This document shows positions 1,803 through 9,225 of a stretch of DNA of 10,356 nucleotides, piece by piece. Origin of the DNA: Asaia bogorensis (lineage in GTDB: Bacteria > Pseudomonadota > Alphaproteobacteria > Acetobacterales > Acetobacteraceae); assembly GCA_945871455.1 (NCBI GenBank), contig CAMBXJ010000103.1, positions 1 through 10,356 of the forward strand, in the 5' to 3' direction. Under the pieces are notes generated by a model. The model searched no databases. It saw nothing but the letters and a program-made list of their open reading frames with translations, and was not told where the DNA came from. Each line of letters begins with the position of its first letter. Positions within the stretch are counted from its first letter, which is position 1. Both the position numbers and the translations under genes were made by a program.

Positions 1803-2021
1803 TCAGGCGATCACCGCCCGGATTTCGCTTTCGGTCGGAAACCGTCCGGTTGCCTTCTTCGAGTAGGCCAGTCGGCCTTCCACGGACACCTCGAATACGC
1901 CGCCACCGCCGCGCTTCATCAGGATGTCGGCCGTCGGGTGGGCTGCCAGGATCAGGTCACGGGCCGCACGGGCGCGTGGCTCATAACCTCACATGCCGCA
2001 GAATTCGATTTCGATTTGCAT
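1803..2021 (-). CDS. SelW-like selenoprotein (Rdx family, CxxU) with in-frame UGA as selenocysteine
   Basis: Small thioredoxin-fold redox protein of the SelT/SelW/SelH (Rdx) family. It has 72 residues when the TGA at 1989-1991 (codon 11) is read as selenocysteine. The N-terminus reads MQIEIEFCGMUGYEPRARAA: beta strand, then C8-G9-M10-U11-G12-Y13. This matches the vertebrate SelW active site (YCGAUGYK) in both position and sequence. After the UGA the frame stays open for 61 codons and continues the family pattern: a helix (AARDLILAAHP), GGGGVFEVSVEGRLAYSKK near residues 41-59, then GRFPTESEIRAVIA before the real stop. Start ATG 2021 has AGGGA about 8 bases upstream. The exact role of bacterial SelW proteins is not settled; thiol/selenol redox chemistry is inferred from the motif. 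The gene is divergent from the manC-type gene and lies 148 bp before the glycosyltransferase on the same strand. The alternative is a pseudogene with one nonsense mutation, but the stop falls exactly on the family's Sec site and is UGA. A standard gene caller would miss this gene. Confidence 0.85.
1955..1988 (-). promoter_or_regulatory. Candidate bacterial SECIS hairpin directly after the UGA codon
   Basis: The 34 bases after the UGA can fold as GGUUAUG paired with CGUGACC (7 pairs, two G-U), then GCC with GGC and ACG with CGU, with a single A and C opposed, a 2-base GC bulge and the apical loop CGCC. The loop starts 15 bases after the UGA and its second base is G. Bacterial SECIS elements lie inside the coding region just 3' of the UGA, with a short loop carrying G in the first two positions. 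This fold is roughly right, though the spacing is at the short end. High GC makes chance hairpins common, so the pairing alone is moderate evidence. Confidence 0.55.
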
Positions 2022-2049
2022 GTCGTGCTTCCCTATCCATCTGCGGTAG

Positions 2050-2113: not shown

Positions 2114-3550
2114 ATGACCGGCCAAACGACAGACACAACGATCGTCCCCGTCATCCTGTCCGGCGGATCGGGCACCAGATTATGGCCGGTCTCCCGAGAG
2201 AGCTTTCCGAAACAGCTTTGGCCGCTCGTATCCGAGCGCACCATGATCCAGGAAACCGCCGTTCGTGCGCTGGGGCCAGGGTTCCAGCCACCAATCGTGG
2301 TGTGCAACCAGGAGCATCGGTTCCTGATCGCCGAACAACTGCGCCAGGCCGGCATCGCCGGGGCGCGCATCCTGCTGGAGCCGGTGGGCCGCAACAGCGC
2401 CCCCGCCATCGCCGCGGCGGCCCTGTTGGCGGCCGAAGACGACCCGGACTCGGTGCTGTGGATGATGGCGGCCGATGCAGCGATCGCCGATGTCCCCGCC
2501 CTGCACAAGGCGCTCGCTATTGCCGCCCAGGTGGCGCGCACGGGTCGGATCGTCACCTTCGGCATGCGCCCGACCGCGCCCGAAACCGGCTATGGCTATA
2601 TCGAGACGGGGGAGCCTTTGGCCGATGGGCCGGGTGCATTCACCGTAGCGAAGTTCCTGGAAAAACCGGACCAGGCGACCGCCCAGCGCCTGGTGGCGGA
2701 TGGGCGGCATCTGTGGAATTCCGGCATGTTCGTGTTCACCGCGCGCACCTTGCTGCAGGAACTGGATAGCCACGCCCCCGATGTGCTGCCGGCGGTGCGT
2801 TCGGCGGTGGCGGGGCGCCGATCCGATCTGGATTTCATCCGCCTGGACGAAGCGGCGTTCGCGGCCTGCCCGTCGATCAGCCTGGACTATGCCGTCGCCG
2901 AACGCAGCAGCCGAGCGGCGGTGGTGCCGGCGGATATTGGCTGGTCGGATGTGGGCAGTTGGAATGCGCTGTGGGAACTCGGCGACAAGGACGCCAACGG
3001 CAACGTCGTGATTGGCGATGCGGTGCTGGAGGGGACGGAGAACTGCTATGTCCGGTCCGACACCATGCTGGTGGCGACCGTCGGGCTGAAAGACATCGTT
3101 CTGGTGGTGACCAACGACGCAGTGCTGGCGATGCATCGCGACCACGCCCAGGACGTGAAGGCGATCGTGGAGCGCCTGAAGGTGGCCGGCCGGTCCCAGG
3201 CCGTGGCGCATAATCGCACCTATCGGCCCTGGGGCTTCTACGAAAGCCTGATCCAGGGCGATCGGTTCCAGGTCAAGCGAATCGTCGTATCGCCGGGTCG
3301 TCAGTTGTCGCTGCAAAGCCATTTCCACCGGGCCGAACACTGGGTGGTGGTGAACGGCACCGCCCGCGTCACGCGCGATCAGGAAACCCTGATCCTGCGA
3401 GAGAACGAGAGCGTGTACCTCCCCCTGGGCTGCGTCCACCGGCTGGAAAATCCCGGCCGGATCCCGCTGACCCTGATCGAGGTGCAATCCGGCGCCTATC
3501 TGGGGGAGGACGATATCGTGCGGCTGGAGGACACTTACGGCAGGGTCTGA
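2114..3550 (+). CDS. manC: Mannose-1-phosphate guanylyltransferase / mannose-6-phosphate isomerase (bifunctional)
   Basis: Cytoplasmic enzyme of 478 residues, the usual length for the bifunctional ManC/CpsB/AlgA/XanB type. The N-terminal nucleotidyltransferase domain makes GDP-mannose from mannose-1-phosphate and GTP: VPVILSGGSGTRLWPVSRE at residues 11-29, FPKQLWPL just after with the conserved lysine K33, and FLEKPD at 181-186. The C-terminal type II phosphomannose isomerase domain is a cupin: RPWGFYESL, then LSLQSHFHRAEHWVVVNG near 398-415 with H403, H405, E408 and H409 as likely metal or active-site residues, and LPLGCVHRLENPG after it. The common form is Q-(M/Y)-H-x-H; here it is Q-S-H-F-H. 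The ATG at 2114 fits because the first core strand starts only ten residues in; the ribosome site is weak (AAAAAAAGG about 14 bases upstream). The gene converges on the PAP2-like gene. The product supplies GDP-mannose, and via it GDP-fucose or GDP-rhamnose, for polysaccharide assembly. Confidence 0.95.
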   Translation: MTGQTTDTTIVPVILSGGSGTRLWPVSRESFPKQLWPLVSERTMIQETAVRALGPGFQPPIVVCNQEHRFLIAEQLRQAGIAGARILLEPVGRNSAPAIAAAALLAAEDDPDSVLWMMAADAAIADVPALHKALAIAAQVARTGRIVTFGMRPTAPETGYGYIETGEPLADGPGAFTVAKFLEKPDQATAQRLVADGRHLWNSGMFVFTARTLLQELDSHAPDVLPAVRSAVAGRRSDLDFIRLDEAAFAACPSISLDYAVAERSSRAAVVPADIGWSDVGSWNALWELGDKDANGNVVIGDAVLEGTENCYVRSDTMLVATVGLKDIVLVVTNDAVLAMHRDHAQDVKAIVERLKVAGRSQAVAHNRTYRPWGFYESLIQGDRFQVKRIVVSPGRQLSLQSHFHRAEHWVVVNGTARVTRDQETLILRENESVYLPLGCVHRLENPGRIPLTLIEVQSGAYLGEDDIVRLEDTYGRV

Positions 3551-7329: not shown

Positions 7330-9225
7330 ATGAAACGGTTCCTCCGACCCCTGTTGCTTGTGGCCACCCTGAATTTCACTCTGGCTGGGCCGGGCATGAC
7401 CGCGCCGCCACCGTCCCCCGCCGGTGTGACCCATGCCCCCCAGGGGTGGAGCCCGGCGGAACGGGTCGCCTGGTACACCGCGACCCAAGGTTCCCGGCTG
7501 ATCCCGCTGGCCTGGTTGCGCGCGCTGGAGCAGCCGAACGGCACCGCCCCGTTCCTGGACCCGGAGCACATTCAGAAATTCCGCTACCTGCCCAATCCGA
7601 CGGCGGGCTTCACCACCATGGCCTGCGCGACCGACAAGTCCTTGCCGCTCGACAAGACACTGCCCTTGGGGTTCACCGTCGATTGCCAGTCGGACAAGCT
7701 ACTCAGCAACACCAAACTGCGCTGGAAATCCGGGCAATCCGATCGGGAGCCCTGGGTCGGCCTGAACTGTTCCGCCTGTCACACGAACGACATCACCTAT
7801 GGCGCCACGACCCTGCGGGTGGATGGGGCGCCAACCCTGGCCGACTTCCAGGGCATGAAGGAGGCGCTGGAGCTGGCGATGCGCCAGACCGCGTCCAACA
7901 AGGAGAAATTCGACCGGTTCGCGGCAAAGCTGTCCGCCGGAACGAAAACCACGCCAGACGATCCCAAATTGCTGGCGGCGTCGCTGAAACTCTGGAACGA
8001 CTGGTATGCCAAACTGGCGGTGCTGAACGATCCCGGCGATCTGCGCTACGGCTTCGGACGCCTGGATGCGATCGGGAATATCTTCAACAAGGTCTCGCTG
8101 ATCGCGACCCCGGACAATATCGACAATCAGATCGCCAATCCCTCGGACGCGCCCGTCAGCTATCCGTTCCTGTGGAATGTGCCCCAGTTGAACAAGGTGG
8201 AATGGAACGGCAGCGCCCCGAACATCGATGCGAACGACTTGCGCGCCGGCGCGCTGGTTCGCAACACCGGAGAGGTCATCGGTGTGTTCGCCGATATCGT
8301 CATCAAGCCAAAGGCCGGCCGGTTTGAAGGCTATGTCTCCAGCATCAACCTGCCGCACCTTGTCGGCATGGAAACCCGTCTGACCAAACTGCGCCCGCCT
8401 GCCTGGCCGGCGATGTTTCCGCCGATCGACAAGGCGCTCGCCGACGCCGGCCGCGGCCTGTTCAAGCGCGACTGCGCCGCCTGCCACACGATCCCGCGCT
8501 CCCCAGGCAGCCTGACGGAGAAGTTCACCGTCAACCTGCAACCCGTGATCAACGCGGTTGGCGGACAGCAACCGGTGGGGACCGACATGTGGATGGCCTG
8601 CAACGCCATCATGGCCACCGCGCTGAGCGGACGCTTCCAGGGGAACCTGGTCTCGTTCCTCAGTTGGTCCGAAACCTTCCCCGCCACGGCCGACAGCTTC
8701 ACCCTGACCGGCAATGCCGCGCTCGGCGCATTGCTCGGTCGGAAGACGCAGTTGGCCACCAATGCCATCACCGGGATCTTCGGCTTTGCCAAGGATCTGC
8801 CGCTGCCGGGGTCAGTGCCCATGGCGGCTGGGCTCGACAAGAAGCAGGCACGTGCACAGGCGTGCCGGGACTACCAGGAGGCCGACTCGGAGAACCTCAA
8901 GATGGTCTACAAAGGCCGTCCCTTGCAGGCAATCTGGGCCACCGCACCGTATATGCACAACGGGTCGGTCGCTAATCTTTGGGAACTGCTGCTGCCGCCG
9001 GCGCAGCGGATGAAGGAGTTCTACCTGGGCACGCGGGAGTTCGATCCAGTGCTCGTCGGGTTCAAATACGACAAGGCGACACCGGGCAATGACTTCAGGT
9101 TCCGCACCCAGGACGATGCCGGCGTGACGATCGAAGGCAACTCCAACGCCGGCCATGACTATGGCAATGCTCGTCTTACCGAACCGCAACGACGTGCCCT
9201 GGTCGAATATATGAAGACGCTCTGA
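7330..9225 (+). CDS. Secreted di-haem c-type cytochrome, RoxA / di-haem cytochrome c peroxidase-like
   Basis: 631 residues, exported and probably periplasmic or extracellular. The N-terminus MKRFLRPLLLVATLNFTLAG is a classic signal peptide. Two covalent haem c sites are present: C147-S-A-C150-H151 and C382-A-A-C385-H386. The 235-residue gap is longer than in classical CcpA/MauG peroxidases (about 150) and close to that of RoxA-type proteins. Other family hallmarks are QGWSPAERVAWYTATQGSRL near 38-57, VSYPFLWNVPQ near 276-286, LVRNTGEVIGVFADI near 309-323, and RPLQAIWATAPYMHNGSV near the C-terminus. RoxA and RoxB are rubber oxygenases that cleave poly(cis-1,4-isoprene), but most relatives are of unknown function, so the substrate is not assigned. 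Start ATG 7330 has GGGAG 6 bases upstream; an earlier TTG in frame (7315) would put that site inside the gene. It stands alone with long gaps on both sides, suggesting its own promoter. Confidence 0.85.
   Translation: MKRFLRPLLLVATLNFTLAGPGMTAPPPSPAGVTHAPQGWSPAERVAWYTATQGSRLIPLAWLRALEQPNGTAPFLDPEHIQKFRYLPNPTAGFTTMACATDKSLPLDKTLPLGFTVDCQSDKLLSNTKLRWKSGQSDREPWVGLNCSACHTNDITYGATTLRVDGAPTLADFQGMKEALELAMRQTASNKEKFDRFAAKLSAGTKTTPDDPKLLAASLKLWNDWYAKLAVLNDPGDLRYGFGRLDAIGNIFNKVSLIATPDNIDNQIANPSDAPVSYPFLWNVPQLNKVEWNGSAPNIDANDLRAGALVRNTGEVIGVFADIVIKPKAGRFEGYVSSINLPHLVGMETRLTKLRPPAWPAMFPPIDKALADAGRGLFKRDCAACHTIPRSPGSLTEKFTVNLQPVINAVGGQQPVGTDMWMACNAIMATALSGRFQGNLVSFLSWSETFPATADSFTLTGNAALGALLGRKTQLATNAITGIFGFAKDLPLPGSVPMAAGLDKKQARAQACRDYQEADSENLKMVYKGRPLQAIWATAPYMHNGSVANLWELLLPPAQRMKEFYLGTREFDPVLVGFKYDKATPGNDFRFRTQDDAGVTIEGNSNAGHDYGNARLTEPQRRALVEYMKTL

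Follow-up and report, generated by a model that had tools for sequence, protein, structure and literature searches.

A minus-strand reading frame interrupted by a single TGA raises the question of whether that codon is an error, a true stop or a codon for selenocysteine (Sec). The frame lies in a 10,356-nucleotide stretch of DNA from Asaia bogorensis, referred to here as the window, and the original prediction took it for an unannotated SelW-type selenoprotein of the Rdx family (SelW/SelT/SelH) with UGA at the CxxU site. Translation of the minus strand from 2021 to 1803 bore out the claimed frame: it has 72 codons, the eleventh of which is the sole internal TGA, in the context C-G-M-U, and runs from MQIEIEFCGM through the stop and GYEPRARAARD to a final RAVIA and stop. 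The Shine-Dalgarno sequence that had been claimed ahead of the ATG was present as well (Table 1).

Table 1. Features of the selW-like locus in the window, with the putative RNA elements numbered from the U of the UGA.
Feature	Position	Strand	Basis
selW-like gene (Rdx family), 72 codons plus TGA stop	1803..2021	-	PF10262, TIGR02174, predicted Rdx fold
In-frame UGA, codon 11, CxxU; putative Sec codon	1989..1991	-	TGA in 26/26 relatives; tracks tRNA-Sec/selB across genomes
Terminal stop TGA of the selW-like frame	1805-1803	-	translation
Partner Cys codon (Cys8) of the CxxU motif	1998..2000	-	TGC in 33/33 unique related sequences
Shine-Dalgarno-like AGGGA, 8 nt 5' of the ATG	2030..2034	-	read from sequence
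Putative bacterial SECIS hairpin, nt 13-35	1957..1979	-	isolated hairpin, synonymous constraint, loop common to relatives
Apical pentaloop CGUGC, nt 22-26, G23 U24 (putative)	1966..1970	-	39/58 sequences on a stem of at least 3 bp
manC (mannose-1-phosphate guanylyltransferase / mannose-6-phosphate isomerase), divergent neighbor	2114..3550	+	TIGR01479, 692.9 bits

With the TGA read as a residue, profile searches matched the frame to Rdx (PF10262) over residues 2-71 (62.7 bits, cut-off 22.6) and to TIGR02174 (53.2 bits, curated cut-off 34.2), and the portion after the TGA alone scored 40.8 bits against the Pfam Rdx profile. The scores above curated cut-offs, together with that of the post-TGA portion, mean that the frame is not due to chance; family-like sequence thus lies on both sides of the TGA, and the UGA occupies the CxxU/CxxC place of the family, as had been claimed. 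The Campylobacter SelTWH equivalog (NF041051) matched at 76.2 bits, under its curated cut-off of 88, so the window protein is not that equivalog. Structure prediction (pLDDT 93.9) gave a first strand at residues 2-8 and a helix at 13-27, with C8 and residue 11 between them. Against the PDB, the model had 23 matches at E <= 0.001 to eight entries, mouse SelW and MIEN1 included, and sequence search returned the same eight; the fold match was TMq 0.77 for mouse SelW (2npb) and 0.90 for the SelW-related 2p0g. The predicted fold is the thioredoxin-like one expected of an Rdx member, with the CxxC/CxxU motif between strand 1 and helix 1.

Relatives were sought with peptide patterns that skip codon 11, one genome per species being scanned, and this yielded 26 loci. 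Of these, 22 form a close set (L022-L043), mostly titled as Acetobacteraceae or other Alphaproteobacteria; by title, three are Chloroflexi and one is a planctomycete. All 26 carry TGA at the codon-11 position, among them the locus of a named strain, Rhodopila globiformis DSM 161 (L025). The dN/dS of the window frame 3' of the UGA was 0.20-0.36 against each of the six relatives tested, and codons 1-10 showed 0-2 amino-acid-changing differences from six relatives. Further decay of the frame had been named as a finding that would speak against a selenoprotein; instead, purifying selection acts on the two halves of the frame alike. Across the class, 385 genomes were sampled and gave 39 Rdx matches, 28 with one TGA, 10 stop-free and one with TAA, so that the in-frame stops are 28 TGA and one TAA (n = 29), and the 27 best matches are all TGA. 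The TAA stands in a weak Rdx match (G549:C179:1239-1445), possibly a decayed copy.

These comparisons bear on the possibility of a pseudogene or of a sequencing or assembly error, in which a Cys codon, TGC, was mutated to or misread as TGA. The window's genome is indeed a fragmented draft, one in which no selB was found (see below), but the identical TGA recurs in the 26 loci and in 22 genomes of a family survey (eight genomes being common to both), TGA accounts for 28 of the 29 stop-bearing matches in the class, and dN/dS past the UGA is low. As the same TGA stands in independent assemblies, including that of R. globiformis DSM 161, error or decay is refuted as an explanation, and we leave it hardly any probability.

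The protein database held 24 matches to the window protein, six full-length and 18 of only 40-54 aa, and the seven short entries that were read (7/18) all begin past the UGA. Past the UGA, the next ATG is codon 35, with 38 residues remaining. The claim that annotation would truncate the gene therefore stood, save for the residue count, which had been put at about 37. The short entries could also reflect a two-part or regulated gene, in which translation truly ends at the UGA and a start further 3' yields a short C-terminal protein, the form annotated in the databases. Were that so, codons 1-10 would hardly be expected to differ so little among relatives, residues 2-8 would not supply strand 1 of the predicted fold, and the six full-length orthologues would not be continuous as one protein; we consider this explanation highly improbable. 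At the Sec site the six full-length orthologues (clusters) have Cys in five and Trp in one, although the source may have written C for U. The Trp entry, P0002, may reflect a genuine exchange, an error in sequencing or a gene call made under a TGA=Trp code. The proposed look at homologues for Cys or Sec at codon 11 thus came out in favor of the prediction for the TGA in 26/26 loci and the Cys in five of six orthologues, and against it for the one Trp. Judged from these alignments, the UGA appears to be either conserved or exchanged for Cys in orthologues, which is the pattern that a selenoprotein should leave.

The genome of the window is a draft of 520 contigs that is 84.9% complete. It contains selA (527 bits, split across two contig ends), a tRNA-Sec gene (anticodon TCA) about 70 nt past selA, and selD (309 bits). 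For selB, a profile search of this incomplete draft gave no match above the cut-off, and the best match was to a protein that we take from its translation to be EF-Tu. The machinery that the prediction had said to look for was accordingly found as regards selA, selD and tRNA-Sec, and selB was seen in relatives only: the two genus-mates with the TGA gene in a 200-genome sample, G099 and G156, have both selB and tRNA-Sec. In these two genomes selA adjoins tRNA-Sec, and no tRNA gene was present in the 10 kb fetched around selB, which is therefore located elsewhere. With selB elsewhere and the draft incomplete, its absence from the window's genome is little surprise, yet it remains a gap.

In the genomes of the 26 loci, tRNA-Sec was found in 23 and none was seen in three at E <= 1e-9, a threshold at which a control, Thermus composti, also matched; the weakest of the 23 best matches had 64.9 bits. 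Two of these genomes, G604 (locus L030) and G617 (locus L043), had two tRNA-Sec matches each. The family survey covered 200 genomes, 50 of which had an Rdx (TIGR02174) match: 22 with one TGA, 27 stop-free and one partial (G165), which leaves the site uncovered and was left out both of the contrast between the first two groups and of the 177 other genomes considered below. Among the 22 TGA-type genomes, tRNA-Sec was found in 20 (E <= 1e-10), a selB match in 21 (E <= 1e-60) and at least one of the two in all 22. Twenty of the 21 selB matches were above the curated cut-off, that of G097 being a contig-end fragment. Neither tRNA-Sec nor selB was found in any of the 27 genomes with a stop-free CxxC Rdx (Fisher p = 8e-12, relatedness not corrected), and tRNA-Sec was present in 45 of the 177 other genomes (p = 2.6e-9 against the TGA type, relatedness again not corrected). 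The 26-locus and 200-genome samples share eight genomes, recognized by identical downstream sequences, and the two counts are not independent; over the compared stretch, selW of G156 is identical to L024 (titled Acetobacteraceae) and that of G099 to L027 (titled Rhodopila sp.). G194 carries selW, selA and tRNA-Sec consecutively on the same strand of a single contig.

The 27 stop-free members (L048-L074) had been considered as Cys orthologues and were rejected on reading, as they have another motif type, CxxC followed by NW or HW in 27/27. They served as the co-occurrence contrast, which, given the other motif, is one between subgroups. Five genomes of the survey (G021, G077, G078, G144, G167) have two selB matches each at E <= 1e-60, possibly SelB paralogues for different SECIS loops.

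Reading of the UGA as an amino acid other than Sec, such as Trp through a code change or near-cognate readthrough, is favored by the Trp at the site in P0002. Set against that single cluster, UGA is the ordinary stop of the adjacent manC, of leuC, of a UPF0149 gene and of a cytochrome gene, so there is no global recoding; moreover, the TGA type tracks tRNA-Sec and selB, five of the six full-length orthologues have Cys, and the UGA sits at the CxxU position. We give this alternative next to no credence and return to Sec as the decoded residue.

Synonymous codon choice was analyzed in 33 unique, related sequences (46 were found, 38 of them unique, and L044-L047 and L113 were left out; the search pattern missed L095, L110, L111 and L112). 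Counting the UGA as codon 1, codons 6-9 were synonymously skewed (naive P from 9e-5 to 1e-16), and codons 2-5 and 11-27 were near background, with no naive P < 0.01. The choices at codons 6-10 were CGC (26/33), GCC (29/33), CGT (21/26, background 0.11), GCG (25/25) and GCG (22/33), the bias at codon 10 being mild. Strong bias was seen off the hairpin also, with GAA in 30/30 at -4, TGC in 33/33 at -2 and GGC in 29/32 at 30. The skewed codons fold as a hairpin with the loop CGUGC at nt 22-26, placing G and U at nt 23 and 24. In the window this loop starts 18 nt after the UGA, and the stem of the putative hairpin consists of 3 bp, one mismatch and 4 bp. Isolated, the hairpin had a folding energy of -9.8 kcal/mol and a pair probability of 0.95 within nt 12-36; once the sequence was extended 5' to nt 4 or nt 1, a competing fold was preferred (-18.4 and -20.1 kcal/mol, respectively) that has no CGUGC loop.

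CGUGC capped a stem of 3 bp or longer in 39 of 58 unique sequences, compared with a mean of 1.4 and a maximum of 7 in 2000 rounds of a synonymous null, for a motif that was picked after part of these sequences had been seen. In this count L095 and L110 were included, L111, L112 and L139 gave no frame, and 19 of the 58 were without CGUGC on such a stem. In a second set (A3), the CGUGC loop lies one codon further from the UGA, on a different stem. A3 was assembled once the shifted loop was known, its sole rule being CGT at the ninth codon (UGA = first), with stem pairing no criterion. Of the 24 qualifying sequences, L046 and L097 were dropped as near-duplicates of L044 and L077, and the 22 that were aligned include two Chloroflexi loci and two genomes from the window's family alongside other Alphaproteobacteria. 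The 5 bp stem of A3 was paired in 110/110 cells, with both sides changed in three of the five pairs; its covariation was 0.313 vs 0.069 when shuffled (0/500 shuffles), and RNAalifold recovered the stem unaided. For the window's own subgroup (A1), RNAalifold gave no consensus structure and covariation was weak, its score being reached in 31/500 shuffles; a covariation claim for A1 was dropped as RNAalifold found no structure there. Folding energies in sliding windows pointed to extra stability 3' of the UGA (z about -4.4 vs the synonymous null), and they were rejected as evidence, since an equal peak stood at codon offset 32 and there was no signal against a column shuffle.

An Rfam search of the window gave no match. 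The element with U17, G23 and U24, which we take to be the E. coli type, shares G23 and U24 with the window hairpin, in which U17 is absent and nt 17 is G. The loop positions G23 and U24 and the bulged U17 are named in the part of a SECIS review available to us (PMC8659212), and an upper stem of 4-16 bp belongs to the bSECIS consensus model as given in the accessible text of another source (PMC13188914). On the sequences compared, the RNA signals are consistent with a bacterial SECIS element, though A1 gave no consensus fold.

Formate dehydrogenase offers a second possible client of the Sec system. Among 20 genus members, a profile search at E <= 1e-40 recovered enzymes of the TIGR01553 type in four, all four with a TGA in frame, and none in the window's genome, G099, G156 or G199. 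At these four loci, where the Sec site was picked by its NQAR-x-U-H motif, nt 22-26 read AGUCU in three and AGUUU in one, with GU at 23-24. PF00384 matches were inspected in 27 genomes. An in-frame TGA was found, among the matches listed, in at least four of the 22 SelW-bearing genomes (G091, G002, G014, G094), and in all four of the other-genus genomes picked for having the machinery without SelW (G003, G011, G016, G020). No in-frame stop occurred in the PF00384 matches of G156 (6/6 listed) or the window's genome (2/2 listed), nor among the 8 of G099's 9 matches that were listed. Profile searches of the window's genome for a Sec formate dehydrogenase returned matches free of in-frame stops, or no match. 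In some genomes, therefore, the Sec system may have selW as a main client. A further genus-mate, G199, has selB at C37 and tRNA-Sec at C8, and showed no TIGR02174 match, no TIGR01553 formate dehydrogenase and no TGA among the 4 of its 5 PF00384 matches that were listed; machinery with neither gene suggests that the Sec system has other clients. We advance tentatively, and with more doubt than conviction, the wider proposal that in Acetobacteraceae and neighboring Alphaproteobacteria SelW, and not formate dehydrogenase, could be a main client keeping the Sec system in many genomes, served by a SECIS with a CGUGC pentaloop, a varying stem and a one-codon shift in spacing between subgroups.

UGA conservation, co-occurrence with the machinery, exchange for Cys and constraint at the RNA level all support the original interpretation as a true selenoprotein. 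Resting on sequence comparison, our reading is that the gene almost certainly encodes a SelW-type Rdx selenoprotein, with the UGA at codon 11 decoded as Sec under guidance of a putative SECIS and a 72-residue Cys8-x-x-Sec11 product; for actual Sec insertion the comparative evidence argues strongly. SelA and SelD would charge tRNA-Sec, which SelB would deliver to the UGA under the direction of the hairpin just 3', with its CGUGC loop and GU at nt 23-24. The product would be thioredoxin-like, with its Cys and Sec on the loop that joins strand 1 to helix 1; its most likely role is that of a small thiol/selenol oxidoreductase, which would form a selenenylsulfide and be turned over by low-molecular-weight thiols. 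We infer both the binding of SelB to the window hairpin and the redox role, the redox cycle and partner thiols because of what is said of the Rdx/SelW family; an interaction with glutathione is noted in the accessible part of one report (PMC1088965).

Of the 22 loci L022-L043, 12 have the divergent manC next to selW. This neighbor is a common context and no part of the mechanism, and the back-to-back genes perhaps have a promoter region in common. One of these loci, L022 (CALQHT020000236.1), is titled Nitrosovibrio, and its SelW and ManC are 89% and 97.7% identical to those of the window; given this closeness, and since the loci next closest to the window are mostly titled Acetobacteraceae, the organism name of L022 looks wrong. 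Elsewhere in the window, 7330-9225 encodes a di-heme cytochrome c peroxidase-like protein (NF040606, 534 bits), with likeness to rubber dioxygenase far under the cut-offs.

Campylobacter is a distant host relative to the window's organism, and the NF041051 score given above separates the window protein from the equivalog of that group. SelW of Campylobacter jejuni (CJnc60) is likewise a small Rdx selenoprotein that went unannotated owing to its UGA, and its full-length translation is backed by Ribo-seq and proteomics, according to the available portion of the paper (PMC11955535). Descriptions of SelW-like selenoproteins in bacteria date from 2005-2008 (PMC1088965, PMC2398784, in the sections available), and reviews list SelW-like proteins with PF10262 and CxxU in the text accessible to us (PMC9312934, PMC13188914). 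The SelW-like proteins of the Sargasso Sea and GOS sets likewise combine Rdx, CxxU, a SECIS-like hairpin after the UGA and misannotation; these sets are marine metagenomes, however, and the available parts of both papers name no Acetobacteraceae or other Alphaproteobacteria (PMC1088965, PMC2398784). Mouse SelW (2npb) has the same fold and CxxU site as the window protein; the eukaryotic SECIS lies in the 3' UTR, as stated in an accessible passage (PMC1088965), whereas the putative SECIS of the window lies in the coding region. The stop-free CxxC Rdx proteins of the family and the solved structure 3dex belong to the same profile family or fold family as the window protein, but have a CxxC-[NH]W-type motif (CTQCRW in 3dex) in place of CxxU, and by their sequences they are apparently a subgroup separate from the TGA type.

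A literature search by titles and abstract openings, with paper supplements outside its scope, found nothing on SelW in Alphaproteobacteria, though a mention may sit in some table, and no paper on Rhodopila and a selenoprotein was found. The term SelW is absent from the available text of a 2021 study of alphaproteobacterial selB (PMC8124441), and a 2025 tool paper gives, in its accessible part, three known selenoprotein genes in Afipia without names (PMC12013277). A 2006 survey, as far as its available text goes, had Alphaproteobacteria with one selenoprotein family, FdhA being the sole selenoprotein (PMC1794560). The present loci extend SelW selenoproteins to many Alphaproteobacteria, for which that survey had formate dehydrogenase only, and this spread is a modest surprise against it (PMC1794560, same portion). 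They also point to a type of annotation error, seen in the truncation of 18 of the 24 database matches, provide a natural SECIS series of one loop, several covarying stems and two spacings for probing what SelB requires, and offer a small bacterial model for SelW function. The window protein itself is a new addition to a selenoprotein family already known, and one that apparently often goes unannotated or is annotated short.
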